From Thermoanaerobaculia bacterium (lineage in GTDB: Bacteria; Acidobacteriota; Thermoanaerobaculia; UBA5066): DNA of 47,327 nucleotides. The notes beneath the pieces were generated by a model. It had not been told where the DNA came from and ran no database searches. It saw nothing but the letters and a program-made list of their open reading frames with translations. A program made the translations under genes and the position numbers. Positions 297 to 47,327 of this stretch are shown in pieces. The DNA is taken from assembly GCA_022071945.1 (NCBI GenBank), contig JAJVIN010000038.1, forward strand, positions 1 through 47,327, in the 5' to 3' direction. Within the stretch, counting starts at the first letter, position 1; the number at the start of each line of letters is the position of its first letter.

Positions 297-1529
297 ATGA
301 GATTCCAAGGAATCGGACAGGGTCACCGAGAGGCGAGCCGTCTCATGATCGCGTTGCTGACGGCGGCTCTTGGCGCCGCGGTCTCCGGCTGTGCCAAGAA
401 GGAAGCTCCGCCTCCGCCCCCGCCAGTAGCAGTCAAGGTCGGGACCGTGCTCCAGAAGGACGTTCCCATCTACGTGGAGGCGATCGGCCAGACGCGGGGT
501 TCCACGGAGATCGAGGTCCGCGCGCGCGTCGAGGGCTTCATCCAGACGATCGACTTCAAGGAAGGCAATCCGGTAAAGAGGGGTCAACTCCTTTACACAA
601 TCGACTCCCAGCCGTTCGAGGCGGCCCTGGCCCAAGCCAAAGGCTCTCTCGCCGAGGCCCAGGCACAGTTCGCGCGCGCCCGGCAGGACGTGGTCCGGTA
701 CGAGCCGCTGGTGGCCAAGAACGCGATCTCGCGGCAGGAGTACGAGACCGCGGTGGCCGTTCAGCAGGCGGCGGAAGCCTCGGTTGACGCGGCAAAGGCG
801 GCGGTCCAGCGAGCCGAGGTCGACCTGAGCTACACCAAGGTGGTTGCCCCCGAGGACGGCCTCGTGGGCAGGACCGAGGTCTACCCCGGTACGCTCGTCG
901 GACGGGGGCAGAGCACCCTGCTCACCCACATCTCGCAGATCGAGAAAATCCACGTTCGTTTCACGATGACGGAAAAGGACTATCTCTATTTCGCGCGCCG
1001 GCGTGAGCAGCGGGGAACGTCTGAGCAGGCGCCGACAACGTCGCTCGAGCTCGTCTTGGCGGACGCGTCGGTCCACCCGGAGAAGGGCCGGATCGTGTTT
1101 GCCGATCGCAACGTGGACCCGACGACAGGAACGATCATGATGGAAGCGGCTTTCGAGAATCCGGGCTCGATCGTGCGGCCAGGACAGTACGCCCGCGTGC
1201 GCGCTGCCGTGGACATCAAGAAGGATGCCCTGCTCGTGCCTCAGAGGGCCGTCTCGGAACTCCAGGGCATCTACAACCTGGCGGTCGTCGGGACCGACCA
1301 GACCATCGAGATCCGGCCCGTTCAGATGGGGGCGCGGGTCGGGACCCTCTGGGTGGTCGAGTCCGGTCTCAAGGCCGGGGAGAACGTCGTGGTGGAAGGT
1401 CTGCAGAAAGTGCGGCCCGGCGTCAAGGTCACGCCCGAGATGGTGAAGATCGAGGAGGGCAGCGGTGCGCCTCCTCCGCCGGCGGCCCCCGCCAAGGCGA
1501 AGGCCGAGGCGAAGGGCGCCCAGGGATAG
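297..1529 (+). CDS. RND efflux periplasmic adaptor (membrane fusion lipoprotein), set 1
   Basis: This 410-residue protein is a membrane fusion protein of the AcrA/MexA type. It bridges an inner-membrane RND pump to an outer-membrane channel in the periplasm. The N-terminus is a lipoprotein signal with a lipobox ending at Cys32 (VSGC), so the mature protein is probably lipid-anchored. A Pro-rich linker follows, then a biotinyl-lipoyl half-motif (EVRARVEGFIQ), an Ala/Gln-rich coiled-coil hairpin at about 95-165, the second lipoyl half (TKVVAPEDGLVGRTEV), and beta-barrel and membrane-proximal domains (RPGQYARVRAAV). The tail is Pro/Ala/Lys rich. The start at 297 follows GGAGG; an in-frame ATG at 345 would give a shorter signal. 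The pump gene starts 6 bases after the stop, so they form one operon. Substrates cannot be read from the sequence. Confidence 0.95.
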   Translation: MRFQGIGQGHREASRLMIALLTAALGAAVSGCAKKEAPPPPPPVAVKVGTVLQKDVPIYVEAIGQTRGSTEIEVRARVEGFIQTIDFKEGNPVKRGQLLYTIDSQPFEAALAQAKGSLAEAQAQFARARQDVVRYEPLVAKNAISRQEYETAVAVQQAAEASVDAAKAAVQRAEVDLSYTKVVAPEDGLVGRTEVYPGTLVGRGQSTLLTHISQIEKIHVRFTMTEKDYLYFARRREQRGTSEQAPTTSLELVLADASVHPEKGRIVFADRNVDPTTGTIMMEAAFENPGSIVRPGQYARVRAAVDIKKDALLVPQRAVSELQGIYNLAVVGTDQTIEIRPVQMGARVGTLWVVESGLKAGENVVVEGLQKVRPGVKVTPEMVKIEEGSGAPPPPAAPAKAKAEAKGAQG

Positions 1530-1535
1530 CGGGCC

Positions 1536-4500
1536 ATGGCGGATTTCTTCATTCGTCGCCCGATCGTGGCGATCGTCATCGCCATCATCATCGTGCTCCT
1601 GGGTCTCAACTCCCTTCGAGGGTTGAGCTTCGAGCAGTATCCCTTCCTCGCTCCCCCCACCATCCGCGTAACGGCCAACTACCCGGGTGCCTCGGCGGTG
1701 GCTGTCGAGCAGTCGGTCGCCACTCCGATCGAACAGGAGGTCAACGGCGTCGAGGGACTGATCTACATGAAGTCCTCGAACACCTCCGACGGCCGAATGC
1801 TTCTCGACGTCAACTTCCAGGTCGGAACCAACCAGGACATGGCGAACGTTCTGACCCAGAACCGCGTGTCCTCGGCACAGTCGCGTCTCCCCCAGGAAGT
1901 CGTCCAGCAGGGCATCACCGTCAAGAAGCAGAGCCCCAGCATCTTGATGCTGATCTCGGTCTACTCGCCGAAGGGAACCTACGACGCCAACTTCCTGACC
2001 AACTACATGGGCATCAACATCCGCGACCAGATCCTCAGAATTCCGGGCATCGCCCAGGTCGACCTCTTCGGCGGTACCGACTACGGAATGCGGATCTGGC
2101 TGCGCCCCGACAGGATGGCGAAACTGGGGCTGACCCCCTCCGACATCATGTCGGCCATCAAGGAGCAGAACCTCCAGGCCCCTGCCGGCCGTATCGGCAT
2201 GCGTCCATCGCCGCAGGACCAGGAGTTCACCTACACCGTCAGCGCTCCCGGACGCCTGATCACCGAGGAGGAATTCGCGAACATCATCGTTCGTGAGACC
2301 GAGACCGGCGGCCAGGTCCGCATCAAGGACGTGGGTCGCGTGGAGCTGGGCTCCCAGGACTACAACTCCTTCGGGCGCCTGAACGGAAAGCCGGCAGGTG
2401 CCGTGGCCGTGTACCTCCTGCCCGGAGCGAACCAGCTGAAGGCCGCCGAGACGATCTACGAGACCATGAAGACGGCGAAGACGTTCTTCCCGACGGACAT
2501 GGATTACACGATCGTCTACGACACGACGCCGGCCGTCGAAGCCTCGATCGAGTCGATCTTCCACACGTTCCTCGAGGCGGTCGTGCTCGTCACCCTCGTC
2601 GTGTTCATCTTCTTGCAGAACCTGCGGGCCACGATCATCCCGCTCCTGACGGTTCCGGTGTCGCTCATCGGAACCTTCATCTTCTTCCCGCTCCTCGGTT
2701 TCTCGGTGAACACGCTGTCGATGTTCGGCCTCGTCCTGGCGATCGGAATCGTGGTCGATGATGCAATTGTCGTGGTCGAGGCGGTCATGCACCACATCGA
2801 GCACGGCATGACGCCGAGAGATGCCACGGTCCAGGCGATGAAGGAAGTCTCCGCGCCTGTCGTCGGCATCGCGCTCATCCTCTGCGCCGTGTTCATCCCG
2901 GTCGCCTTCATCCCCGGCCTGACCGGACAGATGTACCAGCAGTTCGCGCTCACGATCGCGATCTCCGTGCTGCTCTCGGCCTTCAGCGCGCTCTCCCTCT
3001 CGCCGGCGCTCTCGGCGATGCTGCTGAAGCCCCCCAAGCCGGCCCGGGGCCCCATCGGCTGGTTCTTCAAGAGCTTCAACAAGGTCTTCGACAAGACGAC
3101 AAACGCCTACGTCAAGGGCGCGCAGATCCTCGTGCGCCGGTCGATCCTCACCATCATCCTCGTGGCAGTGGTGGCGGTGGGTGCCGGATTCTTCGGCGGG
3201 AAGCTCCCCGCCGGCTTCATTCCCGAGGAGGACCAAGGCATCCTGGGAGTGAACGTCACGCTGCCGCCAGGAGCCTCACTCGAGCGCACGAACGCCGTGC
3301 TCACGAAGGTCGAGGAGATCCTGGCGAAGACGGACGGAGTCGAGTCATACCAGACCGTGGGCGGACTCGGCATCGTCACGAACACCTTCCAGCCCAACTT
3401 TGGAACCATCTTCATGCGCCTCAAGCCCTGGAAGGAGCGGCACGGTGGCGCGTTACATGCGAAGGGCATCATGGCCAAGGTACAGGCCGAGGTCGCGCGG
3501 ATCCCCGAAGCCATCATCTTCCCGTTCAACATCCCCACCATCTCTGGCTTCGGCGCCTCGGCCGGCTTCAACTTCGTGCTCCAGGATCGAAGCGGAAGCC
3601 TGAGTGTCGAGCGGCTTGGAGAACTCGGGCAGCAGTTCGCGGCCGCCGCGCGGAAGCGTCCAGAGGTCGGGAACATTTTCACGTCGTTCGATCCTCGGTA
3701 TCCCCAGGTGAACGTCGTCCTCGACCGTGAGAAAGCCCGCAAGATGGGCGTGCCGGTGAACGAGGCTTTCCAGGCCCTCGCATCGTGCCTGGGTGGAAGC
3801 TACGTCAACGACTTCAACCGCTTCGGGCGCCTCTTCCGCGTTTACGTCCAGGCCGAGGCTGACTACCGTCGCAAACCCGAGGACATCAGCAACATCTGGG
3901 TGCGCAGCAAGACCACGAACGACATGATCCCCCTCGGGACGCTGGTCACCGTCACATCCCAGGGCGGGACGGAGTTGACGAACCGGTTCAACCTGCTTCG
4001 CTCGGTCGAGCTCAACGGGGTTCCGGCAAAGGGTTTCGCCTCGGGACAGACGATGGCTGCGCTCGAGCAGGTCTTCAAGGAGACGATGCCCGCGGAGATG
4101 GGCTTCACCTACGCCCAGCTCTCCTACCAGGAGAAGATCGCCCCGCCCGCCGGCCCGACCTTCGTGGCCGCGATCGTTTTCGTCTTCCTCCTGCTCGCCG
4201 CCCTGTACGAGAGCTGGAGGCTGCCGTGGGCTGTTCTCCTCGGATCCCCCCTCGTGGCCCTCGGGGCCTTTTTCGGCGTCTGGCTCGCCGGCTATGACAA
4301 CAATGTCTACGTCCAGATCGGCAACATCATGCTCATCGGCCTCGCCGCGAAGAACGCCATTCTCATCGTCGAGTTCGCCAAGGCGAAGAACGACGAGGGG
4401 ATGAGCGTGCAGGAGGCCGCCCTCACATCGGCCCGCCTCCGCTTCCGTCCCATCCTGATGACCGCGTTCGCCTTCATCCTCGGCGTCATTCCCCTCATGA

Positions 4501-4700
4501 AGGCTTCTGGAGCCGGTGCCGGTGCCCAGAACGTCATGGGTACGGCCGTGTTCTGGGGAATGCTGGTCGCGACCGCACTCGGGGTCTTCCTGATCCCGGG
4601 CAACTTCGCTTTCGTCGAGACACTCGGCCGCAAGAAGAAGTCGGGCGAGGAGCCGGCACCTCCAACTCTGCCGGAACCGTCCCACGGAGGAGGGCACTGA
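1536..4700 (+). CDS. RND multidrug efflux pump, HAE1 family, set 1
   Basis: This 1054-residue inner-membrane permease is the normal length for an AcrB/MexB-type pump. It opens with the family hallmark (ADFFIRRPIVAIVIAI, first membrane helix). It has two large periplasmic loops and twelve expected membrane helices. The proton-relay residues are present: Asp408-Asp409 in VVDDAIVVVEAV and Lys939 in AAKNAILIVEFAK. It should exchange protons for hydrophobic or amphipathic compounds and pass them to the outer-membrane factor encoded next. The adaptor gene ends 6 bases upstream, and the outer-membrane gene starts one base after the TGA. The C-terminus is a short charged Pro/Gly/His tail. Family assignment is secure; the substrate range is unknown. 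Confidence 0.97.
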   Translation: MADFFIRRPIVAIVIAIIIVLLGLNSLRGLSFEQYPFLAPPTIRVTANYPGASAVAVEQSVATPIEQEVNGVEGLIYMKSSNTSDGRMLLDVNFQVGTNQDMANVLTQNRVSSAQSRLPQEVVQQGITVKKQSPSILMLISVYSPKGTYDANFLTNYMGINIRDQILRIPGIAQVDLFGGTDYGMRIWLRPDRMAKLGLTPSDIMSAIKEQNLQAPAGRIGMRPSPQDQEFTYTVSAPGRLITEEEFANIIVRETETGGQVRIKDVGRVELGSQDYNSFGRLNGKPAGAVAVYLLPGANQLKAAETIYETMKTAKTFFPTDMDYTIVYDTTPAVEASIESIFHTFLEAVVLVTLVVFIFLQNLRATIIPLLTVPVSLIGTFIFFPLLGFSVNTLSMFGLVLAIGIVVDDAIVVVEAVMHHIEHGMTPRDATVQAMKEVSAPVVGIALILCAVFIPVAFIPGLTGQMYQQFALTIAISVLLSAFSALSLSPALSAMLLKPPKPARGPIGWFFKSFNKVFDKTTNAYVKGAQILVRRSILTIILVAVVAVGAGFFGGKLPAGFIPEEDQGILGVNVTLPPGASLERTNAVLTKVEEILAKTDGVESYQTVGGLGIVTNTFQPNFGTIFMRLKPWKERHGGALHAKGIMAKVQAEVARIPEAIIFPFNIPTISGFGASAGFNFVLQDRSGSLSVERLGELGQQFAAAARKRPEVGNIFTSFDPRYPQVNVVLDREKARKMGVPVNEAFQALASCLGGSYVNDFNRFGRLFRVYVQAEADYRRKPEDISNIWVRSKTTNDMIPLGTLVTVTSQGGTELTNRFNLLRSVELNGVPAKGFASGQTMAALEQVFKETMPAEMGFTYAQLSYQEKIAPPAGPTFVAAIVFVFLLLAALYESWRLPWAVLLGSPLVALGAFFGVWLAGYDNNVYVQIGNIMLIGLAAKNAILIVEFAKAKNDEGMSVQEAALTSARLRFRPILMTAFAFILGVIPLMKASGAGAGAQNVMGTAVFWGMLVATALGVFLIPGNFAFVETLGRKKKSGEEPAPPTLPEPSHGGGH

Positions 4701-4701
4701 G

Positions 4702-6135
4702 ATGGTGCGCCGACTGACTGCCCTTTCTCTGGTCCTTCTCACCACCGGGTGCACCCTCGGACCGAACTACCAGCGTCCGGCCGTGCCCGCCCCCCAGGCC
4801 TGGCGCGAAATCCCGAAGGCCGACGCCCAGAGCTTCGCCAACACGCCGTGGTTTGAGGTCTTCGATGATCCAAAGCTTCAAGAGCTGATCCGCGTCGCGC
4901 TCGCGGAAAACAAGGATCTCAAGATCGCGATCGAGCGGATCGAGGAAGCCCGGGCTTTCTACGGGATTGCGAAGGCCGACCTGTGGCCCAAGGTTGACGT
5001 CACCGCGGGCGCCGGGCGCGGCCGGGTCCCCCTGGCCAGCGGCGGATCTGGCACCGACGTCTCCCAGTTCTCGCTCAGCGCCGACGTCTCGTGGGAGATC
5101 GACTTCTTCGGGCGCATCCGCCGGACGACGGAGGCGCAGCAGGCACTCTTCCTCGGCACGCAGGAGGCCCGGCGGGCCACCGTCATCGCCCTCGTCGCCG
5201 ACGTCGCCCGCGCATACTTCGAACTCCGCGACTTCGACCGGAGGCTGGCCATCACACGCGCCACCATCGAGTCGCGGCGCGAGTACCTGCAACTGGCCAA
5301 GGACCGCTTCGAGGGAGGCGTCACCGCCGAAATCGACTTCCGCCAGGCCGACGCGGAACTCCGTCGCGTCGAGGCCCTGGTGTTCGATTACGAGCGCCTG
5401 ATCGCCCTGAAGGAGAACGAGCTTTCCGTGCTCCTCGGCCGCAACCCTGGACCGATCCTTCGCGGCCGGGAGTTGGACAAGATGAAGCTGCCGGCGGCGG
5501 TCCCCGCCGGCTTGCCGTCCGATCTCCTCGAGCGGCGCCCTGACGTCCGCGCGGCCGAACAATCACTCGCCGCCGCGACCGCCAACATCGGCGCGGCCAA
5601 GGCTCTTCTCTTCCCCCGCATCGCCCTGACCGGTTCCCTGGGTGTCTCGAGTTCCGAGCTAGACACGCTCTTCAACAGTCCGGCGCAGGCCTGGAGCATC
5701 GCCGCCGGGCTCCTGCAACCAATCTTCAACGCTGGCAAGAACAAGCGCCGCGTCGAGGTCACGGAGTCCCAGCAGCGGCAAAGCCTCTACGCCTACGAGC
5801 AGGCGATCTTGCAGGCTTTCCGCGAGACCGAAGATGCTCTCGTCTCCTACCAGAGAACGGGCGAGCAGAAGAAGGCGCAGTCCCTGCGCGTCGACGCTGA
5901 ACGGAAGGTCCTCGATCTGGCCGAAATCCGCTACCGGGGCGGCGTCGCGGCCTATCTCGAGGTCCTCGACGCACAGCGCTCGCTCTTCAACGCCGAGATC
6001 GACGAGGCCCAGACACTCGGGGGCCATCTCCTCTCGCTCGTCCGTCTCTACAAGGCCCTCGGCGGCGGGTGGCAAGAACCCGCGCCGGCCGCGGCACCTG
6101 CCGCTCCGGCGGCCGAGGCACCCGTCTCGAAGTAA
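4702..6135 (+). CDS. Outer-membrane efflux lipoprotein (NodT/OprM type), set 1
   Basis: This 477-residue TolC-like outer-membrane factor completes the first tripartite efflux system. A lipoprotein signal ends at Cys17 (LLTTGC) and is followed by LGPNYQRPAVPAP, the hallmark start of NodT-type efflux lipoproteins. Two repeated helical/beta halves follow, each with the family pattern (DLLERRPDVRAAEQSLAAA in the middle; RYRGGVAAYLEVLDAQRSL near the end). The Ala/Pro-rich tail is probably unstructured. The ATG lies one base after the pump stop codon, with GGAGGAGGG inside the pump 3' end as ribosome site, so the two are translationally coupled. A factor-independent terminator follows at 6164. Confidence 0.95.
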   Translation: MVRRLTALSLVLLTTGCTLGPNYQRPAVPAPQAWREIPKADAQSFANTPWFEVFDDPKLQELIRVALAENKDLKIAIERIEEARAFYGIAKADLWPKVDVTAGAGRGRVPLASGGSGTDVSQFSLSADVSWEIDFFGRIRRTTEAQQALFLGTQEARRATVIALVADVARAYFELRDFDRRLAITRATIESRREYLQLAKDRFEGGVTAEIDFRQADAELRRVEALVFDYERLIALKENELSVLLGRNPGPILRGRELDKMKLPAAVPAGLPSDLLERRPDVRAAEQSLAAATANIGAAKALLFPRIALTGSLGVSSSELDTLFNSPAQAWSIAAGLLQPIFNAGKNKRRVEVTESQQRQSLYAYEQAILQAFRETEDALVSYQRTGEQKKAQSLRVDAERKVLDLAEIRYRGGVAAYLEVLDAQRSLFNAEIDEAQTLGGHLLSLVRLYKALGGGWQEPAPAAAPAAPAAEAPVSK

Positions 6136-6163
6136 CTCTTCCGGGGAGGTCCCGTTCAGGCAG

Positions 6164-6196
6164 AAAGGGGCGGTTTCCACCGCCCCTTTCCGTTTT
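6164..6196 (+). terminator. Intrinsic terminator of efflux operon 1
   Basis: A perfect 10-bp stem (AAAGGGGCGG at 6164-6173 with its complement at 6180-6189) has a 6-base loop. It is followed by CCGTTTTCG, a weak T tract. It lies 28 bases after the outer-membrane factor stop codon and separates the two efflux operons. Confidence 0.8.
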
Positions 6197-6284
6197 CGTG
6201 CTCCCCCGCGAGATTCGCGGTTCGACTCCGGGCAAAGTCCGAAATCCGGTTGATCGAATCACACGTGCGCTGGAATGCCGCTGC

Positions 6285-6310
6285 TATGATCTTCTGGTCA
6301 GGGTCTGACC
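6285..6310 (+). promoter_or_regulatory. Candidate -10 and operator of efflux operon 2
   Basis: TATGAT at 6285-6290 matches the sigma70 -10 box at five of six positions. It is followed at once by a 6-bp inverted repeat GGTCAG-GGT-CTGACC (6296-6310), placed where transcription would begin. No good -35 was seen at 16-18 bp. The arrangement suits a locally repressed promoter, but this is inference from position alone. Confidence 0.35.
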
Positions 6311-6376
6311 GCGCCGATGCCGAGCCGGTGGACTTCGCCGGCGGGCACCCTCAAGCGACCCCAGGAGGAGGACTTG

Positions 6377-7606
6377 ATGCCTCACACGGGATGTCTGGCG
6401 ACCGCCCGAAAAACCCCCCTTCACTCCATCCGACGAACGCGAAGCGTGGGCATCGCCCTGCTGAGCGTTCTGGTGGGCACCGGCTGCGCGAAGGCCAAGC
6501 CGCCAGCCGCGCCGCAGACTGCCGAGGTCACGGTCGTGACCGTGGCCGCGCGCGACGTCCCCGTCTCGGTGGAGTACGTCGCCCAGACGCAGAGTTCGCG
6601 CCAGGTCAGCATCCAGGCGCGAGTGAGCGGCTTCCTCGACAAGCGGGTCTACACCGAAGGCTCCCTCGTCAAGGAAGGGGACGTGCTCTTCCTGATGGAC
6701 AAGAAGCCCTTCCAGGTCCAGGTGGACGCAGCCAACGCGGCGCTGGCCCGGCAGCAGGCCTCGCTCGAAACGGCCAAGCTGAACCTCGAGAGGACCCGGC
6801 CCCTCACCGCCGAGAACGCCCTGTCGCAGAAGGATCTGGAGGACGCGAGCGGCCACTACCAATCCACCGCCGCCGCGGTGGAGCAGGCCAAGGCGGAGCT
6901 GGCCGGTTATCAGCTGAACCTCTCGTACTGCACCATCACCTCACCCGTCACCGGCGTCGCCGGCGCCGCCCTTCAGCAGGACGGCACGTACATCAGCGGG
7001 CAGAACAGCCAGCTCACGACGGTGGCCGTCCTCTCACCGATGTGGGTCAACTTCAGCATCTCGGAAAACGAGATGCAGCGACTAAGGGACCGGATCGCCA
7101 AAGGCCAGATCGTGCCGCCCAAGGGCGGGCAATACGGCGTCGAGGTCTTGATGGCGAACGGCACGGTCTTCCCGCATCGCGGAAGGATCACGTTCGCCGA
7201 CCCGTCCTTCAACCCGGCCACCGGGACCTTCCTCGTGCGGGCCAGCGTCGACAATCCCGACGGGATCCTCAGGCCCAACCAGCACCTGAGAGCCCGCATC
7301 GTCGGAGCAGTCCGTCCGAAGGCCATCCTGGTTCCCCAGCGGTCCGTCCAGCAGGGAGCCAAGGGGAGCTTCGTCTGGGTGGTGAGCGCAGACGGGAAGG
7401 CTGAACTGCGCCCCGTGGTCGCCGCGGGATGGCACGGAGACGACTGGTTCATCGACGAGGGGCTGGCGCCTGGCGACCGCGTCGTGGTGGACGGCGGCCT
7501 GACTCTGCGCGCCGGGATCCCTGTGACGGTGAAGAACGTCGAGCCCGGCGCCGCACCGCCAGGCTCCAGTCCGCCCAAGACCGCTGCCGCTCGGACCGCT
7601 GGCTAG
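6377..7606 (+). CDS. RND efflux periplasmic adaptor (membrane fusion lipoprotein), set 2
   Basis: This 409-residue membrane fusion protein is paralogous to the adaptor at 297. The start at 6377 is chosen because AGGAGGAGG lies at 6363-6371; an upstream in-frame ATG at 6317 has no such site. A basic N-region (IRRTRSVG) and hydrophobic stretch end at a lipobox Cys37 (VGTGC). Lipoyl halves (SIQARVSGFLDKRV and CTITSPVTGVAGAAL) flank a coiled-coil hairpin at about 105-175. A beta-barrel domain follows (ILRPNQHLRARIVGAV). It should link the pump encoded 18 bases downstream to the outer-membrane factor at 10800. The C-terminus is Pro/Ala rich, as in set 1. Confidence 0.95.
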   Translation: MPHTGCLATARKTPLHSIRRTRSVGIALLSVLVGTGCAKAKPPAAPQTAEVTVVTVAARDVPVSVEYVAQTQSSRQVSIQARVSGFLDKRVYTEGSLVKEGDVLFLMDKKPFQVQVDAANAALARQQASLETAKLNLERTRPLTAENALSQKDLEDASGHYQSTAAAVEQAKAELAGYQLNLSYCTITSPVTGVAGAALQQDGTYISGQNSQLTTVAVLSPMWVNFSISENEMQRLRDRIAKGQIVPPKGGQYGVEVLMANGTVFPHRGRITFADPSFNPATGTFLVRASVDNPDGILRPNQHLRARIVGAVRPKAILVPQRSVQQGAKGSFVWVVSADGKAELRPVVAAGWHGDDWFIDEGLAPGDRVVVDGGLTLRAGIPVTVKNVEPGAAPPGSSPPKTAAARTAG

Positions 7607-7624
7607 GGCGCGAGGACCTGCGCC

Positions 7625-10600
7625 ATGTTCTCGAGATTCTTCATCGAGAGACCCATCTTCGCGACCGTCGTCTCCCTGATCATCGTCATCGCCGGCGGGG
7701 TCGCCATGCTTTCCCTGCCGGTCGCCCAGTACCCGGCCATCACCCCGGTACAGGTCACCGTTTCGGCCATCTATCCCGGCGCTGACTCCCGAACCGTCGC
7801 CGACGCCGTCGCCGCCCCGATCGAGGCCCAGATCAACGGCGTCGACAACATGCTCTACATGTCCTCGACGAGCAGCAGCAACGGGATGATGACCCTCACC
7901 GTCTACTTCTCGCTCGACACCAACCCCGACATCGCGCAAGTCCAGGTGCAGAACCGGGTCAACCTGGCGCTGCCGCAGCTGCCTGACATCGTCAAGGGGC
8001 AGGGGGTCACCGTCCAGAAGAAGTCGTCGAACATGATGATGATCATCGCCCTCTACAACAAGGACGGGCGATACAAGCCGGAGTACGTCGCGAACTTCGC
8101 AAACGTCTACGTGCTCGACAGCATCAAGCGGGTGAACGGCGCCGGAGACGCGGCGGTCCTCGGCACGCCGGACCAGGCGATGCGGATCTGGATGAACCCG
8201 GAGCGGATGGCCTCGCTGGGAATCACCACGAGCGACCTGCAGGGCGCCATCGCCAACCAGAACGCACTCTTCGGCGCCGGACAGATCGGGCAGCGTCCCG
8301 GTGAGGGAAAGGTCGAGCAGACCTTCCCGGTCGTCACCCAGCCGCGGTTCGCGGAACCCTCGGAGTACGAGAGGATCATCCTCCGGACGAGCCAGGACGG
8401 CAGCGCCATCGTGAAGCTCAGGGACGTCGCCCGCGCGGACGTCGGCCTGAGGCTCTACACAAACGAAAACAAGCTCGACGGCGCCCCCGCCACCCTCATC
8501 GCCGTCTACCAGCAGGCGGGTGCAAACGGCCTCGAGGTCTCCAAGGGTGTCCGGGAAACGATGGAGGGCCTGAAGAAGACGATGCCCAACGGCATCGAGT
8601 ACCTCATCGCCCTCGACACGACGGACTTCGTGAGGATCTCGATCGAGGAGGTCATCGACACCCTGTTCGAGGCGGTCCTCCTCGTCATCCTGGTCGTCTA
8701 CCTGTTTCTCCAGAGCTTCCGGGCGACGATCATCTGCACGACCGCGATCTTCGTGGCCCTCATCGGCACGTTCAGCGGCATGGCCGCACTGGGTTTCTCC
8801 ATCAACCTCCTGACCCTCTTCGGCATCATCCTGGCCATCGGCATGGTGGTCGACGACGCCATCGTCGTGGTGGAGAACGTCGAACGGAACATGGAGAAGC
8901 TCCACCTGCCGCCGAGGGAGGCTACCCTCCGCGCCATGGACGAGATCGGGACGTCCCTCGTGGCGGTCGTCCTCGTCATGGCGTCGGTCTTCATCCCGGC
9001 GGCGTTCTTGCCCGGCACGACCGGGCAGCTCTACAAGCAGTTCGCGATCACCATCGTGATCTCCGTGGCCCTCTCCGGGTTCGTGGCTCTGACCCTGACG
9101 CCCGCGATGTGCGCCCTGATGCTGAAGCACCGGACGCCCCCGCAAAAGGGCTTCTTCGCCTGGTTCAACAGGCAGGTCGACCGGATCACCGTCCTGTTCG
9201 GGGACGCGGTCAACCTCGTCATCAAGCGGACCGCCGTGGCCTTCGTCCTGCTCGGCTTTCTGATCTACGCCATCTTCCATCTGTTCAAGACGATCCCGAC
9301 CGCCTTCGTCCCGAACGAGGACCAAGGCTACGTCTTCGCCGGCCTCGTCATGCCGGACGCCGCGAGCCTCGACCGGACGGTGGAAACGTCCGACCAGGTG
9401 GATGCCCTCTTCGCGAATCACCCGGCGGTCGCCCACCGGATGCCGGTCAACGGCTACAGCATTCTCGACGGGCAGGTCAAGACGAACGCCGCGACACTCT
9501 TCATCTCTCTGAAGCCTTTCGAGGAACGGTACGAGTCGATGAAGCGGGCGCGCGACGAGAACGCCAAGGCCGTCCTCATGTCCGTCTACGAGGGGAGCAA
9601 GAAGATCCACACCGGCGCCGTCCTTCCGATCGCACCGCCCGCCATCCCGGGCATCGGCACCACCGGCGGTTTCGAACTCTGGATCCAGGACAAGCTCGGC
9701 GGAGACCCGACGGTGCTGGGCGAACTCACGGAGAAGTTCATCGCCGAGGCCAAGAAGAGACCTGAGTTGACCTCGGTTCACAGCACCTTCCGGGCCACCT
9801 CCCGGCAGCTGAAGGTCACGGTCGATCGCGAGAAGGCCATGCTCCTCGGGGTCCCGGTCCAGGACGTCTACAACGCCCTGCAGGCCCAGTTCGGCTCTCT
9901 CACGGTGAGCCAGTTCAACCAGTACAGCCGCGTCTGGTACGTCATCATCCAGTCCGACGCGCGATTCCGGCAGGACCCGGCCGACGTCACCCGCCTCTAC
10001 ACGCGCGCAAGCAGCGGCCAGATGATCCCGCTCTCGGCGCTCGTGACGACCGAGTACGTCACCGGCCCGGACCTCTTGCCTCACTTCAACGGCTTCCCGG
10101 CCGCCCAGGTGACGGGTGGCGCCTCACCAGGATTCAGCTCCGGACAGGCGATCGAGGCCATGGAAGACATCGCCAAGAAACTCCTCCCCTCGGGATACGA
10201 CATCTCCTGGTCAGGAATGGCCTTCGAGGAGAAGAAGTCCGGTGGCACCTCCGCGGTCGCGTTCGCGTTCGGGCTCGTCATCGTGTTCCTGGTCCTCGCG
10301 GCACAGTTCGAATCGTGGATTCTCCCGGGCTCGGTCATGACGGCGATCCCGTTCGGCGTTCTCGGAGCGCTCGTTCTCAACTGGCTCCGGGGCCTCAACA
10401 ACGACGTCTACTTCCAGATCGGCCTGCTCGTCCTGATCGGTCTCGGCGCCAAGAACGCCGTCCTCAGGGTCACCTTCGCCGTGGAACTCCGGAAGAAGGG
10501 ACTCTCGATCATGGAGGCCACCATCCAGGCTGGCGAGGAGCGGCTGCGTCCGATCATCATGACGTCGCTGGCCTTCATCTTCGGCGTCCTTCCGCTCGCC

Positions 10601-10798
10601 ATCGCGGTCGGTGCCGGAGCGAACGCGCGCCACTCGATCGGCACCGGCATCATCGGCGGCATGCTGGGCGAGACGACTCTCGCGATGCTCTACGTGCCGC
10701 TCTTCTTCTACCTGTTCGAGAAGCTGGCAGAACGGAGCAAGAGCAAGAAGGAGCCGGCACCGGAGCCACATCCGGCAGCGGCGGAGGAAGGAGGCTGA
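7625..10798 (+). CDS. RND multidrug efflux pump, HAE1 family, set 2
   Basis: This 1057-residue AcrB-type inner-membrane proton/drug antiporter starts with FSRFFIERPIFATVVSLI, the first membrane helix. Asp410-Asp411 (VVDDAIVVVENV) and Lys943 of the proton relay are present. The helix-10 motif reads AKNAVLRVTFA where the family normally has AKNAILIVEFA. Thus a membrane-buried Ile position is Arg948 and the usual Glu is Thr950, right beside the relay Lys. The rest looks intact (GGFELWIQDK in the porter domain, ARHSIGTGIIGG near helix 11). The adaptor gene ends 18 bases upstream; the outer-membrane gene begins one base after the TGA, exactly as in set 1. Whether the substitutions alter proton coupling or substrate cannot be told from sequence. 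Confidence 0.96.
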   Translation: MFSRFFIERPIFATVVSLIIVIAGGVAMLSLPVAQYPAITPVQVTVSAIYPGADSRTVADAVAAPIEAQINGVDNMLYMSSTSSSNGMMTLTVYFSLDTNPDIAQVQVQNRVNLALPQLPDIVKGQGVTVQKKSSNMMMIIALYNKDGRYKPEYVANFANVYVLDSIKRVNGAGDAAVLGTPDQAMRIWMNPERMASLGITTSDLQGAIANQNALFGAGQIGQRPGEGKVEQTFPVVTQPRFAEPSEYERIILRTSQDGSAIVKLRDVARADVGLRLYTNENKLDGAPATLIAVYQQAGANGLEVSKGVRETMEGLKKTMPNGIEYLIALDTTDFVRISIEEVIDTLFEAVLLVILVVYLFLQSFRATIICTTAIFVALIGTFSGMAALGFSINLLTLFGIILAIGMVVDDAIVVVENVERNMEKLHLPPREATLRAMDEIGTSLVAVVLVMASVFIPAAFLPGTTGQLYKQFAITIVISVALSGFVALTLTPAMCALMLKHRTPPQKGFFAWFNRQVDRITVLFGDAVNLVIKRTAVAFVLLGFLIYAIFHLFKTIPTAFVPNEDQGYVFAGLVMPDAASLDRTVETSDQVDALFANHPAVAHRMPVNGYSILDGQVKTNAATLFISLKPFEERYESMKRARDENAKAVLMSVYEGSKKIHTGAVLPIAPPAIPGIGTTGGFELWIQDKLGGDPTVLGELTEKFIAEAKKRPELTSVHSTFRATSRQLKVTVDREKAMLLGVPVQDVYNALQAQFGSLTVSQFNQYSRVWYVIIQSDARFRQDPADVTRLYTRASSGQMIPLSALVTTEYVTGPDLLPHFNGFPAAQVTGGASPGFSSGQAIEAMEDIAKKLLPSGYDISWSGMAFEEKKSGGTSAVAFAFGLVIVFLVLAAQFESWILPGSVMTAIPFGVLGALVLNWLRGLNNDVYFQIGLLVLIGLGAKNAVLRVTFAVELRKKGLSIMEATIQAGEERLRPIIMTSLAFIFGVLPLAIAVGAGANARHSIGTGIIGGMLGETTLAMLYVPLFFYLFEKLAERSKSKKEPAPEPHPAAAEEGG

Positions 10799-40370: not shown

Positions 40371-40432
40371 CGGCCAGGGAGCCTGGACGGCCAGGGAGCC
40401 TGGACGGCCAGGGAGCCTGGGCGCCCTGGCCG
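40371..40432 (+). repeat. Three 17-bp tandem repeats with complementary tail
   Basis: The unit CGGCCAGGGAGCCTGGA occurs three times head to tail (40371-40387, 40388-40404, 40405-40421; the last base of the third copy is G). Just beyond, CCCTGGCCG (40424-40432) is complementary to the CGGCCAGGG start of every copy. Any one copy can pair with it, giving a hairpin with a variable loop. It lies 11 bases after the VOC gene, so it may act as a terminator-like structure. Nothing else was seen in the gap to 40591. Confidence 0.85.
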
Positions 40433-41374: not shown

Positions 41375-44029
41375 GTGCGCCCGCCGATTCGTGGGGTCTG
41401 GGCGAAGCTGAGTCAGAACGAGGATGGCGAGGTTGTCGGCTGGCACCCGCTTTCCCACCACGCGGCTGATGTCGCTGCGTGTTGTGAGGCGCTCCTCGAG
41501 CGGACTCTCCTCGGTCGTCGCCTTGCGACTCTCGCAAACGTGAGGGTCCTGTCTCGGCGACAAGTCGCCAGGCTGTGCTTCATTGCGGCAATTCACGATT
41601 TGGGCAAGCCGAACCACGGGTTTCAGAACAAGGCCTTTCCCGGCAGGACGCCGCTGGCCGGACACGTCCGGGAAGTCGCCGCGCTCTTCGGAGATCATGT
41701 CGGCCCTCTGCAGGAGAAACTGCTGAGAGCAATTCGCTGGGACACCATCGAGAAGTGGTCCCAGGACGATGGAACCTGCCGGCTTCTGATCGCGGCCATC
41801 TCCCATCACGGCAAGCCCCTTGCGACCCGCGAGCCTGTTCAGGAGGCTCACTGGAAGACTCTGGAGGGTCGTGATCCGTTCGCCGAAATTGGGGCACTGG
41901 TGGGGCTCGCTGCGGACTGGTTCCCCGATGCCTTTTCCGGGGGCACTGATTCCCTACCGGCATCAGCATCTTTCCAGCACGCGTTCAGTGGCCTCGTCAT
42001 GCTGGCGGACTGGCTCGGCTCCGACACCAGGTTCTTCCCGTTTTCCGAGGAAGGCGACTCGAGCCGAATCGAATTCGCTCGGGCACGCGCGCTCGAGGCT
42101 TTGAAATCGATTGGATTGGAGACCACAGCTGCCAGAAACTCGCTTGGAACCGAGCCGATTGCCTTTGGACAGATCAGCCCTCATCCACCGAGGCCTCTCC
42201 AAGAAGCAATCATGCGACTGGAGGTTCCGGGTTCGCCTTCCGTGACGATCCTCGAGGCAGAGACAGGATCAGGAAAGACAGAGGCGGCCCTCGCGTACTT
42301 CCTGCGGCTCTTCAAAGAGAGAGCAGTCGATGGCCTCTACTTCGCGCTTCCCACTCGGACGGCAGCAACCCAGATCCATGGACGCCTCGTGGAATCTTTC
42401 AAACTGGCATTTCCGTTCGCAGAGGATCGACCACTGGTGGTGCTTGCCGTACCGGGCTATCTCGTTGTGGACGAGAGCGAAGGTCATAGACTGCCCCATT
42501 TCGAGGTGCTCTGGAACGACGATCCACTCGCCCGGTACCGTTATCGTGGTTGGGCAGCTGAACACCCCAAGCGATACATGGCTGCGTGCACCAGCACGGG
42601 GACGATCGATCAGGTCCTCCTCGGCGCTTTGACGGTGTCTCACGCGCACATGCGCATGACAGCCCTCTCGCGCCTTCTCCTGATCGTCGACGAGGTACAC
42701 GCCTCCGACGCCTACATGAACAGGCTCCTCGAGGAGGTTCTCCGCCGACATGCGGCAGCTGGCGGCCACGCTTTTCTGATGTCGGCCACGTTGGGTTCGG
42801 CTTCACGGAGTGCGTTTGCCGGGATCCTCGACCGACAGGCTCCCCCGCTCTCGCCAGAGAAGGCCGCAGCAAAACCATATCCGCTGATCACCCGAGCGAC
42901 CAGATCAACCCGTGCAGAAGAGATCGCCGTCGAGGGCGCCGGCCTCGAAAAGAGGGTTCGGATCGAACTCGTTCCACTGGTCGACGACGCGAACAGGGTT
43001 GCCGCCAAGGCGCTGGCAGCTGCGATGCGGGGGGCGAAGCTCGTGGTCCTGCGGAACACGGTTGCTGATTGCCTTCTGGTCCAGCGTGAACTCGAAGGGC
43101 TGCCGCCAGGCAAGGACTCTCTCCTTTTCCGGTGCGGCGGACTGGCCTCCCCGCACCACTCCCGGTTTGCAAAGGAGGACCGGGAGCAACTCGACACTGC
43201 ACTGGAAGACAGTTTCGGCAAGGACAGAACAGCCGGCGGCCTGATTTGCTGCGCGACGCAGACGATTCAGCAGAGCCTGGATATCGACGTCGACTTCATG
43301 ATCACCGATCTCTGCCCGATGGACGTGCTTTTGCAGCGCATTGGCCGCCTGCAGAGGCACCAGCGGAGCCGTCCCGTGGGTTTCGAGAATGCCACCTGTG
43401 TGGTCTTGGTTCCGGCTGTTCGAGACCTGTCAGGCCTCATTCGTCCCAGCGGGGAAGCCCTGGGACGGCACGGGTTCGGCTCGGTCTACGACGACCTTCG
43501 AATCCTCGAGGCGACATGGCGCTCCCTCGAGGAATCACCGGCCCTCCGTATTCCCGGAATGAACCGAACTCTCGTCGAGAAAACGACGCATCCGGAGGTT
43601 CTCAAGTCACTCGCTTCGGAACTCGGCGGTGTCTGGAAGAAGCACGCGGAGTACGTGGTTGGACTCTGGTACGCGCATCGACGGCAGGCCGGCGCCACAT
43701 TGATCGACTGGAGCCAGCCCTTTGGCGACTACCAGTTCCCCTCGGAGGGACTCCAGCGCCGAATAGCGACGCGCCTTGGAGAGTCGGATCGCCTCATCGA
43801 TTTCCCATTCCCTCTCCGCGGAGCGTTCGGCGGCCTGATCTCACGGATCAGCATACCGGCCTGGATGGCACGGGGCATTCCTGATGATCCTCTCGTCGAA
43901 GTCGAGAAGACCGAAGGTGGGAGCTTCCGCTTCAAGGCTGGCCCGTCCGAGTTCGAGTATGGGAGGCTGGGGCTGAACATTGTGAAAAACACGGACATGC
44001 GAGGGGGAGATGAAGAAGCTGATGCCTGA
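41375..44029 (+). CDS. cas3: CRISPR-associated helicase/nuclease Cas3
   Basis: This 884-residue HD nuclease and DExH helicase is recruited by Cascade to shred target DNA. The HD part holds His29 and Asp32 (WHPLSHHAADVA), His75-Asp76 (AAIHDLGKPNHGFQNK) and ISHHGKP at 143-149. The helicase has Walker A EAETGSGKT (294-302), DEVH at 439-442 (LLIVDEVHASDAYM), SATL and the motif VI QRIGRLQRH. The start is GTG at 41375 preceded by GGAGG. The gene overlaps cas8e by 20 bases. The domain order and the genes that follow fix the type as I-E. Confidence 0.96.
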   Translation: MRPPIRGVWAKLSQNEDGEVVGWHPLSHHAADVAACCEALLERTLLGRRLATLANVRVLSRRQVARLCFIAAIHDLGKPNHGFQNKAFPGRTPLAGHVREVAALFGDHVGPLQEKLLRAIRWDTIEKWSQDDGTCRLLIAAISHHGKPLATREPVQEAHWKTLEGRDPFAEIGALVGLAADWFPDAFSGGTDSLPASASFQHAFSGLVMLADWLGSDTRFFPFSEEGDSSRIEFARARALEALKSIGLETTAARNSLGTEPIAFGQISPHPPRPLQEAIMRLEVPGSPSVTILEAETGSGKTEAALAYFLRLFKERAVDGLYFALPTRTAATQIHGRLVESFKLAFPFAEDRPLVVLAVPGYLVVDESEGHRLPHFEVLWNDDPLARYRYRGWAAEHPKRYMAACTSTGTIDQVLLGALTVSHAHMRMTALSRLLLIVDEVHASDAYMNRLLEEVLRRHAAAGGHAFLMSATLGSASRSAFAGILDRQAPPLSPEKAAAKPYPLITRATRSTRAEEIAVEGAGLEKRVRIELVPLVDDANRVAAKALAAAMRGAKLVVLRNTVADCLLVQRELEGLPPGKDSLLFRCGGLASPHHSRFAKEDREQLDTALEDSFGKDRTAGGLICCATQTIQQSLDIDVDFMITDLCPMDVLLQRIGRLQRHQRSRPVGFENATCVVLVPAVRDLSGLIRPSGEALGRHGFGSVYDDLRILEATWRSLEESPALRIPGMNRTLVEKTTHPEVLKSLASELGGVWKKHAEYVVGLWYAHRRQAGATLIDWSQPFGDYQFPSEGLQRRIATRLGESDRLIDFPFPLRGAFGGLISRISIPAWMARGIPDDPLVEVEKTEGGSFRFKAGPSEFEYGRLGLNIVKNTDMRGGDEEADA

Positions 44030-45590
44030 AGGCACGTTCAACCTCCTGAGGGAGCCGCTCATTACCGTGGACGACGAGAACGGAGAGTGGCAGCCACTGA
44101 CGCTTCCCGGGATCCTCGCCCGGCTTTCTCGCCGGGTGCCCAGCGAGTTCCCCCGGTTGCAAGCCCATCAGTTCCAGGCGTGGCACGCGTTCCTCGTGCA
44201 ACTGGGTGCGATCGCGGTGGACGGGCACGGCGAATCAGCCCTCCCTGAGGACGACGACACCTGGCGGGCCTGGCTTCAAGACCTCAGCCTGGGATTGGAG
44301 GAGGCGTGGAGCTTGGTCGTCGATGATCTCTCCCAGCCTGCATTCCTGCAACCTCCTGTCCCGGAAGGAACCCTGGCTGGATGGAACGGGCCCATCACGG
44401 AGCCTGACGACTCGGATCTCGACCTGCTCGTTACGGCGAAGGCGCACGACATCAAGCCGGGGAGAATGCTCAACCCGAGACCCGAGCACTGGGTGTTCAG
44501 TCTGGTGACCCTCCAGACGATGCAGGGATACTCAGGAAAGGCCAACTATGGCATCGCGAGGATGAATGGCGGATATGGCTCTCGCCCCTCCCTCGGCCTC
44601 GCTCGCTCGGATCGGCTCTCGGACCGCTTCGCGCGGGAGGTTGGCGTATGGCTCGGGCAGAAGGAAAACATCCTGCAGAACTACCCTCTCTCCGGGTCCG
44701 GCCTCTCCTTGCTGTGGCTCGAACCCTGGGACGGAAGTGAATCCCTCCCAGTTTCCGACCTGCACCCTTTCTTCATCGAGATCTCCCGGCGGGTCCGATT
44801 AAGGGCCGAGGGCCCCAGGGTCTCGGCATCCAGAAAGACGACAGCGGCCCCCAGGATCGACGCCGAGACTCTCAAGGGCGACACCGGCGACATCTGGACC
44901 CCGGTGCAGCCCACGGACAAGGGAACAAAGGCGTTCAGCTCCTCGCAGGAGGGGTTTTCCTACAGAGTCTTGCAGGCGCTTCTGTTTGGAGGTGACTGGA
45001 GGCAGCCCGCCGCCCTCTCGCTCAGTTCTGGGGAGACCCAAGCTCCGGTTTTCGCTGGGCGGACTCTGTCCCGAGGACAGGGTCAGACCCAGGGCTTTCA
45101 CGAGCGGGTCTTACCGGTCCCGGCGCGCGTGGCCCGGATGCTGGGAGCGCGCGAGTCGCGGGACATCATCGGGACCCTGAGCCGCGAGCGAGTCGCCAAC
45201 GTCGACGAGCTGCGGAAAAGAGTGCTGCGGCCCGCCCTGATTCGGTTGCTACAGGGCGGCCCTGACAAACCCAAGAATGATGATGACCGGATCGACGCAT
45301 GGTCCGCTCTTCTGGACGCCCACGTCGACTCGATCTTCTTCCCTCGGCTCTTCGATGCTGTCGAAGATCCTGCTGGGCGGCGGGTCGCCTGGCAGCAGGA
45401 AACCCTCGATATCGCGTCGGGAATACTTCGGACCGCCATGGCATCCCTCCCCATTCCATCAGCTCGGAGATACCGTGCGATTGCGGCTGCCGAGGCCGCG
45501 TTCTGGAAGGGCGCTCGGAACTGGGCTCCCGATCTTTTCGAGAAAGGAGAAGCGAATGGAACCAGCGACGCCATCCAGGCCGCTTCCTGA
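44010..45590 (+). CDS. cas8e: Cascade large subunit Cas8e (Cse1/CasA)
   Basis: This 526-residue large subunit of type I-E Cascade recognises the PAM and recruits Cas3. Family marks are FNLLREPLITV at the start, LVTLQTMQGYSGKANYGIAR with the nearby NGGYGSRPSLGL, and GSGLSLLWLEPWDG. It starts inside the cas3 end (20-base overlap) after GAGGGGG and overlaps cse2 by 35 bases. It is slightly longer than the E. coli protein (502). The C-terminal four-helix bundle seems complete (HVDSIFFPRLFDAVED to the end). Confidence 0.93.
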   Translation: MKKLMPEGTFNLLREPLITVDDENGEWQPLTLPGILARLSRRVPSEFPRLQAHQFQAWHAFLVQLGAIAVDGHGESALPEDDDTWRAWLQDLSLGLEEAWSLVVDDLSQPAFLQPPVPEGTLAGWNGPITEPDDSDLDLLVTAKAHDIKPGRMLNPRPEHWVFSLVTLQTMQGYSGKANYGIARMNGGYGSRPSLGLARSDRLSDRFAREVGVWLGQKENILQNYPLSGSGLSLLWLEPWDGSESLPVSDLHPFFIEISRRVRLRAEGPRVSASRKTTAAPRIDAETLKGDTGDIWTPVQPTDKGTKAFSSSQEGFSYRVLQALLFGGDWRQPAALSLSSGETQAPVFAGRTLSRGQGQTQGFHERVLPVPARVARMLGARESRDIIGTLSRERVANVDELRKRVLRPALIRLLQGGPDKPKNDDDRIDAWSALLDAHVDSIFFPRLFDAVEDPAGRRVAWQQETLDIASGILRTAMASLPIPSARRYRAIAAAEAAFWKGARNWAPDLFEKGEANGTSDAIQAAS

Positions 45591-46092
45591 AATCATCAGT
45601 TCGCTGGCCCGCGACATCGAGTTCAGGCTGGCCCCTGGCGACGTGGCAGAACTCCGTCGACTCGCGCCCGGTGAAGGGCCGCCGCCGGCCTTCTGGAAGA
45701 TCGTGGTGGCGAACCCCGAGATCGAGGGCGCCCTCGCGCGCGGAGGGGAGGACGCCGAGCGGCGCTGGGCAGTCATCATGAACGGGCTCGCCATTCTCCG
45801 GGGCCTCCACCGTCCTGGACTTCGCGCGGGACGCGCCCTCTTCGACGCCGGCGTCAAGGAACTCCGGTTCGTGAGGCTCGTCCGAGCCCGGGGTCCCATC
45901 CTCGCCTCATCTGTCCGAACCGTCACGAGGGCGCTCGCATCCGCCGGGCAACTCCTGGACTTCACCGGCCTGGCAGCTCTCGTCCTCTCCGACGGCGGGG
46001 AGAACGAAGAGGCAGCCCGCCGCCAGCTTTCCCGCGATTACTACGCGGCTACTTATCGCCAGGAAAAGGAACTCGAGGAGGCTTTCGAATGA
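45556..46092 (+). CDS. cse2: Cascade small subunit Cse2 (CasB/Cas11e)
   Basis: This 178-residue helical protein at the position of the type I-E small subunit contacts the non-target strand and stabilises the R-loop. It is recognised by position, size and sequence: WAVIMNGLAILRGLHRP, then FVRLVRARGPILASSV and FTGLAALVLSDGGENEEAAR. The ATG at 45556 with GAAAGGAGA upstream is chosen; longer reading would lie in another frame of cas8e. Its stop overlaps the cas7e start as ATGA. Confidence 0.88.
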   Translation: MEPATPSRPLPEIISSLARDIEFRLAPGDVAELRRLAPGEGPPPAFWKIVVANPEIEGALARGGEDAERRWAVIMNGLAILRGLHRPGLRAGRALFDAGVKELRFVRLVRARGPILASSVRTVTRALASAGQLLDFTGLAALVLSDGGENEEAARRQLSRDYYAATYRQEKELEEAFE

Positions 46093-47261
46093 CGCGATCT
46101 CGCTTTCTGCAGATTCACACCCTGACTTCCTACCCGGCATCCCTGCTGAATCGCGATGATGCCGGATTCGCCAAGCGGATTCCCTTCGGCGGGGCGAGCC
46201 GGATCCGCATCAGCTCCCAGTGCCTCAAGCGGCACTGGAGGACCTTCGACGGCGAGAATGCGATCGTCGAGATCCCGGCGGAGTTGGCGGACGGACGGAC
46301 CGACTTAGGCTCGATTCGTTCCCGCTACACCTTTGAGAAGTTCGTTCTCGAACCACTCGTCCGGGAGAAGGGAGTGGATTCGACCATCGCCCGAGAGGTG
46401 ACCGAAACACTCATGAAGGAGGTTCTCGGAGAGAGCGCCAAGGCAAGACAAGCCAAGGACGCAGCGGAGGGCAAGAAACAGAAAGGGAAGGCGAAGGCGG
46501 GCCCTGCCGAGAAGGATGAGCCGCTGCAGACACCCCAGCTCACCGTCCTGGGTCGACCCGAGCTACGGTACATCCTCGAAGAAGCCTCAGAGATGGCCCG
46601 GCTCCGGCTTGAGGGCAAGAGCCTCGAGGAGGTTGAGAAGTCGCGGATGTCGAAGGCTTGGAAGGAGAACATCAAGCAGCTCCGCACCGGGGCTGGTCTC
46701 GACGCCGCGATGTTCGGAAGGATGGTGACGAGCGACGTTCTCGCCCGTGGCGATGCAGCCATCCATGTGGCGCATGCGTTCACGGTTCACGCGGAAGAAA
46801 GCGAATCCGACTATTTCTCCGCGGTAGACGATCTTCAGCGGGAAGCGGGAGACTCCCATCTCGGAAGCGCCCACATCAACGCGACCGAACTTTCCTCCGG
46901 CCTGTTCTACGGATACGTGGTGATCGACATCCCGCTTCTGATTTCGAACATCGAGGGCTGTGATCGCGTGAGCTGGCAGGGAGCTGACGCGACACTGGCA
47001 TCGGAGGTGGTCCGGAGATTCATCCATCTCGTGGCGACGGTGTCACCCGGAGCCAAGCTGGGATCGACCGCGCCCTATGCATACGCGCATCTGGTCCTGG
47101 CAGAGGCAGGAACGGCCCAGCCCCGAAGCCTGGCAAACGCCTTCTTGCGGCCCGTCAAGAGCCATCCGGACGTCCTGGGTGACGCCTTCGCGAGCCTCGC
47201 GTCTTCAACGCTCGCCAGAAGTGATCCACGTGTGCTCGTGAGAAGTGATCCACCCGTGTAG
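46089..47261 (+). CDS. cas7e: Cascade backbone subunit Cas7e (Cse4/CasC), C-terminally truncated
   Basis: This 390-codon frame encodes the RNA-binding backbone subunit of type I-E Cascade. Its start (FLQIHTLTSYPASLLNRDD) and AGFAKRIPFGGASRIRISSQ are typical, as are SSQCLKRHW, GRMVTSDVLARGDAAIHVAH and SSGLFYGYVVIDIPLLISNI. A Lys/Ala-rich linker fills residues 117-146. The conserved end (SLANAFLRPV at about 350) runs on for about 20 residues and is then replaced at 372-376 by RSDPRVLVRSDPPV, coded by the direct repeats at 47217 and 47241. The normal C-terminal helix with its MYG-like motif is absent, about 30-50 residues. The protein is probably non-functional or impaired. Confidence 0.88.
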   Translation: MTRSRFLQIHTLTSYPASLLNRDDAGFAKRIPFGGASRIRISSQCLKRHWRTFDGENAIVEIPAELADGRTDLGSIRSRYTFEKFVLEPLVREKGVDSTIAREVTETLMKEVLGESAKARQAKDAAEGKKQKGKAKAGPAEKDEPLQTPQLTVLGRPELRYILEEASEMARLRLEGKSLEEVEKSRMSKAWKENIKQLRTGAGLDAAMFGRMVTSDVLARGDAAIHVAHAFTVHAEESESDYFSAVDDLQREAGDSHLGSAHINATELSSGLFYGYVVIDIPLLISNIEGCDRVSWQGADATLASEVVRRFIHLVATVSPGAKLGSTAPYAYAHLVLAEAGTAQPRSLANAFLRPVKSHPDVLGDAFASLASSTLARSDPRVLVRSDPPV

Positions 47262-47327
47262 AGAGGGTTCTGATCAGCATCATCCGCCGAAGGCGCCTGA
47301 GGCGGGTCGACAGGACGGCCAGGGAAT
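47217..47327. mobile_element. Probable end of an insertion element (IS21-like repeats), partial
   Basis: AGAAGTGATCCAC occurs twice at 47217-47229 and 47241-47253, 24 bases apart, and both copies are followed by GTGT-containing sequence. Repeats of AAGTGxTCCAC kind near the ends are a known feature of IS21-family elements. They interrupt the cas7e frame, and beyond them no Cascade sequence is seen up to the window end. The exact terminus and a target duplication cannot be fixed, because the rest lies outside the window. The family call is inference from these repeats. Confidence 0.5.

Follow-up and report, generated by a model that had tools for sequence, protein, structure and literature searches.

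With a probability of about 0.92, a multicopy IS21-like element has transposed into codon 372 of cas7e, interrupting the type I-E operon cas3-cas8e-cas11-cas7e, and the I-E system of this bacterium has very probably been switched off by the insertion. The window in which the junction lies, 47,327 nt in length, is the whole of contig C45, and position 47327 is the contig end. The genome is a draft of 69 contigs and 6.17 Mb that is 96% complete, with a shortest contig of 9,393 bp.

The cas operon and the truncated Cas7e

Four cas genes follow one another on the forward strand in the order of a type I-E gene set, cas3, cas8e, cas11 and then cas7e. The first (41375-44029) encodes an HD nuclease plus helicase of 884 aa matched by Pfam Cas3_HD (109.7 bits), Cas3-like_C_2 (88.6) and TIGR01587 (157.4 bits), in which the motifs HDLGK, GSGKT, DEVH, SAT and QRIGR are all present. 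It is followed by cas8e (cse1/casA, 526 aa; 44010-45590; TIGR02547, 77.4 bits with a cut-off of 70.05) and by cas11 (cse2/casB; 45556-46092, with the start set at the ATG at 45556; PF09485 and, at 51.3 bits, TIGR02548). The open frames of these three genes are intact, and for each of them at least one model is matched above its curated cut-off.

The cas7e ORF runs from 46089 to 47261 (390 aa), and it is the first 371 codons (46089-47202, forward strand; PF09344, 302 bits; TIGR01869, 274.8 bits) that are cas7e proper before the gene is cut off by the element. An initial annotation, made from the letters of the DNA, had the protein matching its family to about residue 372, and this is borne out by Pfam Cas_CT1975, which covers residues 7-372 and halts at position 314 of the 361 in the profile. 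Host sequence ends at 47202, and the boundary with the element is base 47203, inside codon 372. The fusion tail SSTLARSDPRVLVRSDPPV and its stop codon (47202-47261, forward strand; residues 372-390) are translated from the element end. That the tail is foreign and is a translation of the repeat-bearing end had been recognized; the sequence then given for it, RSDPRVLVRSDPPV, was slightly short, the tail being longer because the boundary is at 47203.

Alignment of the end of the protein with its homologues, a check proposed with the initial annotation, shows full-length Cas7e of other genomes to be 35-50 residues longer with a C-terminus unlike that of the window, and SSTLARSDPRVLVRSDPPV is absent from all aligned homologues. 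Of roughly 400-420 residues, 371 are left, followed by an element-derived tail of 19, and the last ~50 are gone. In an AlphaFold model of Cas7e from L024, the closest of the relatives with an intact gene (56% identical; pTM 0.69, an overall confidence that is moderate), the break falls within the helix at 364-383, and the strand at 387-393 and the helix at 409-421 are lost, block pLDDT in this region being mostly 86-95. Also lost is R389, an invariant column in the Cas7e alignment. The element boundary is inside a cas ORF and conserved sequence is missing beyond it, as befits an insertion that inactivates a cas gene.

Judged from the alignment and the model, the truncated Cas7e would be unable to build the Cascade backbone, and genes beyond the element would be cut off from the operon promoter; through the two effects together I-E interference would be off, which agrees with the earlier proposal that Cascade is disabled here. 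The expected failure of the truncated protein is made more credible by a published case in which a strain with IS10 in its I-E cas7 lost interference (PMC10359306). Because the upstream cas genes are intact and copies of the element are nearly identical, the insertion in cas7e looks recent.

The element, its ends and its sibling copies

The right, istB-side end of the element begins at 47203, and its first 125 bp are present before the contig ends at 47327. Two direct repeats of 13 bp with the sequence AGAAGTGATCCAC, R1 at 47217-47229 and R2 at 47241-47253 (forward strand), lie 24 bp apart from start to start, just as first described. The genome has 26 copies of the 13-mer, far more than chance would give, all in 24-bp-spaced pairs at 13 junctions; the reversed 13-mer, taken as a control, has 0 genome occurrences. 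A genome search with cas7e and its tail gave one cas7e match and 12 further matches, to the last 124-127 bp only, that are 97-100% identical and directly abut a contig end in 11 cases and lie 1.2 kb from one in the other. All 13 right ends have differing flanks and one sharp boundary, after which the sequence continues as CTTCA(A/G)CGCTCGCCAGAAGTGATCCAC. The open frame of 19 codons after the boundary might be taken for a natural variant of the Cas7e C-terminus with no insertion, yet the tail has no counterpart in any aligned homologue and is translated from a repeat that occurs at 12 unrelated junctions. The presence of the right end at 13 junctions, together with the paired 7-bp duplications considered next, refutes this reading, whose chance is practically nil.

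Eight contig ends form a second group, beginning CTTGACCGCTCGTCAGAAATGACCC, and this is the left end of the element (CTTGACCGCTCGTCAGAAATG). Left and right ends are identical at 40 of 56 bases, a value reached by 0 of 20,000 shuffles, and the left end bears a degenerate repeat pair, AGAAATGACC and AGGAATGGTCC, with the same 24-bp spacing as R1 and R2. Pairing of the 13 right with the 8 left ends yields four exact duplications of 7 bp, where 0.006 would be expected, and none of 8 bp. When the flanks of each pair are joined and one copy of the duplication is kept, a long ORF across the site is restored in all four. These duplications and restored frames show that the element transposes and that both of its ends are defined. 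The four sibling insertions (C1/C56, C3/C32, C44/C40 and C50/C6) interrupt ORFs whose products, going by sequence resemblance, look like a cytochrome c, a 2-oxoacid:ferredoxin oxidoreductase, a TonB-dependent receptor and a REP-type transposase. The other nine of the 13 right ends are without a left partner in the assembly.

By the precedent of these four siblings, CTCGCGT at 47196-47202 would be one copy of the target-site duplication at the cas7e site; its partner flank is not among the eight left ends, and the left end and transposase genes of this copy are likewise absent from the assembly. As it is the right, istB-side end that faces the operon start, the genes of the element would point toward cas7e and run against the cas genes. 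Since just 125 bp are visible at the cas7e site, the insertion could be thought to be less than a complete element, either an end by itself or a miniature derivative that is non-autonomous. However, the end there is 100% identical over ~125 bp to several other copies, and the one copy readable further in, a variant on C9, carries istB, which makes the idea quite improbable; cas7e would be truncated in any case.

Many of the contig ends of C1-C69, when grouped, stop ~125 bp into a common sequence, and a large share of the assembly breaks lies at repeats. The ends fall into many such groups, several of them mobile-element-like. That the cas7e junction coincides with the end of a contig, in a draft that is fragmented, lends something to the suspicion that it is an assembly chimera or comes from a minor strain, with cas7e intact in most cells. 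Against this, the boundary is on the same base as at 12 other junctions, four of which are validated by the 7-bp duplications and restored ORFs, and stopping ~125 bp inside a repeat is what would be expected of a k=127 assembly graph cut at a true repeat boundary. While the assembly may derive from a mixed population in which there is an intact cas7e allele as well, an artefactual or minority junction is most improbable, and transposition into cas7e is the reading followed here.

It is the C9 copy, which reads on into istB, that permits the element to be identified as IS21-like. The right end of that copy is 97% identical over the common 125 bp and is readable for a further 1,184 bp inward, through an ORF of 112 aa and then istB (PF01695, 195 bits), on the strand pointing to the right end. 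The 112-aa ORF (L015:1659-1997), which separates istB from the right end, has no Pfam match and may be an accessory gene in elements of this group. The istB gene, then, is found in the sibling on C9 and not in the cas7e copy itself. Both ends have direct repeats ~23-24 bp apart, exact at the right end and degenerate at the left, and the short target-site duplication, of 7 bp in all four pairs, is within the 4-8 bp of the IS21 family. Although 3'-CA termini are common in DDE elements, they are not taken as defining here: both ends start 5'-CTT (3'-AG), and this is invariant in the 13 right and 8 left ends. The earlier proposal that an IS21-like element interrupts cas7e is upheld by the repeat-bearing ends, the target duplications and, on C9, the istB gene that adjoins the right end.

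A search for istA and istB had been suggested, and it succeeded for istB as described, while the assembly yielded no istA for this element, and none of its contigs reads through the element to istA. The model NF033546 does find IstA at other elements (C53 and C1) and in weak remnants. The IstA and IstB on C53 were considered as the element's own genes and rejected, as a copy of the element in cas7e has inserted into the one on C53. What is there (L060, 33.9-36.06 kb) is a different IS21 element, with IstA as a 477-aa open frame plus IstB, interrupted near the istA start, a nested insertion. In related genomes and plasmids there is no DNA match to a close copy of the element, only distant IstB proteins of up to ~39% identity, and the closest plasmid relatives of its IstB, at 36-39% identity, are annotated as istB of IS21-like elements. 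‘IS21-like’ is preferred to IS21 as a name because istA is unseen and the termini are AG instead of CA.

In studies of IS5376 and its IstA, the IS21 family is described as having ends with two direct repeats ~23-24 bp apart, istB and a short target duplication (PMC10122671), and the present element shares all of these. It departs from that description in its 7-bp duplication, that of IS5376 being 5 bp, in 3' termini that are AG and not CA, in the 112-aa ORF separating istB from the right end, and in its istA being unseen (PMC10122671).

The remainder of the I-E locus and the other CRISPR systems

An array had been expected beyond the cas genes, and a type I-E array is indeed present, on another contig, C63, which starts inside an IS3-like element. 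The array (C63:136-1134; region L135:1-1134) has 17 repeats of GTCTCCCCCGCGTCCGCGGGGATCGACC, with 28-bp repeats and 33-bp spacers as usual for type I-E, and its final repeat is decayed; repeat 13 lacks one base, and the length of spacer 9 is 31 bp. From their matching type we infer that C63 and C45 are parts of one locus. The first 127 bp of C63 match, at ~88% identity, the end on the orfA side of an IS3-like element of C14 (orfA, PF01527; orfB, PF00665), and on C63 the boundary of this sequence is 8 bp before the first array repeat. The sequence ahead of the array was considered as the I-E leader and rejected, being the end of this IS3-like element, which as a second insertion beside the array has probably damaged the leader as well.

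No cas5e, cas6e or Cas1e was found in the assembly, with profile-model searches used for cas5e and cas6e, and no cas2e at the contig ends, where alone it was sought. When Cas7e, Cas5e, Cas6e, Cas1 and Cas2 of relatives served as queries, no continuation of the operon was detected at any contig end, and the 3' end of cas7e, whose recovery past the element had been put forward as a check, was not among the sequences at those ends. By the spacing in the relatives L024, L057 and L030, the missing piece, consisting of the cas7e 3' end, cas5e, cas6e, cas1, cas2 and the leader, would be ~3 kb, and since C45 ends in the IS21-like and C63 begins in the IS3-like element it is flanked by a repeat at each end.

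Beyond the insertion itself, then, the whole downstream module could have been deleted, for instance by recombination or adjacent deletion via the two elements, leaving the I-E locus a permanent remnant. The absence of cas5e, cas6e and Cas1e from a 96%-complete assembly speaks for this, as does the ending of both surviving pieces in mobile elements, and yet deletion is unlikely. Right ends without a partner are the rule in this assembly, and a piece of ~3 kb is far below the length of the shortest contig, so that it may be unbinned rather than deleted; for these two reasons the absence of the module is no proof of deletion. Furthermore, because C63 ends in the IS3-like element and not in an IS21-like left end, no simple deletion junction from the IS21-like element to the leader is seen.

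The suggestion that the organism may have lost interference does not hold, as the genome has two complete type I-G systems, on C29 and C24, each with cas3g, cas8g, cas7g, csb2 and a Cas4-Cas1 fusion, and with long arrays of 49 and about 73 repeats, respectively. A general loss of CRISPR interference is not supported, whatever the state of the I-E system. The two Cas1 genes were considered as I-E genes and rejected, being the Cas4-Cas1 fusions of type I-G. The repeats of the two I-G arrays (L213 for C29, L214 for C24) are near-identical, and that on C24 has adjacent duplicated spacers at 36/37 and 39/40, with a repeat-like copy standing apart at L214:2070.

The hits on the I-E locus by two elements, IS21-like in cas7e and IS3-like by the array, might reflect selection against I-E activity and not random hits in an IS-rich genome, though this is very doubtful. 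If true, autoimmunity or a clash with a plasmid or prophage of use to the cell would be the source of the selection, with protection still given by the two type I-G systems. Comparison of the I-E and I-G spacers with the host sequence examined gave no self-match beyond short chance ones.

Relation to known insertions in cas genes

Natural insertions of this sort are on record. In complete genomes from CRISPRCasdb, Sheng and colleagues found 163 natural IS insertions in cas genes, involving 20 IS families and 57 genera, and in Erwinia amylovora 7-3 it was shown experimentally that IS10 in I-E cas7 abolishes interference (PMC10359306). With insertions into cas genes, including I-E cas7, already published, the cas7e insertion is a fresh instance of a documented event, of the same kind as those in the survey though in a draft instead of a complete genome; the main text of PMC10359306 does not name ‘IS21’. 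The resemblance to E. amylovora 7-3 (PMC10359306) extends to a natural insertion sequence in cas7 of an I-E operon and to a target duplication, and the differences are IS10 there and an IS21-like element here, 9 bp against 7 bp, a complete genome as distinct from a locus split over contigs, and a loss of interference that was demonstrated by experiment there and is predicted here.

While no new mechanism is opened by it, the case is a well-supported natural example of a CRISPR-Cas operon disrupted by a mobile element; the lineage is little known, and the genome retains other CRISPR systems. From the perspective of draft genomes, contig ends can be paired by their target duplications, which proves insertions and separates ‘missing’ genes from lost short contigs.

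Elsewhere in the window, two RND efflux sets stand in succession at 297-10798 (HlyD-type, AcrB-type and one OEP), and just 3' of a glyoxalase-family gene there is a perfect 17-bp tandem repeat, CGGCCAGGGAGCCTGGA, in 2.9 copies (40371-40420).
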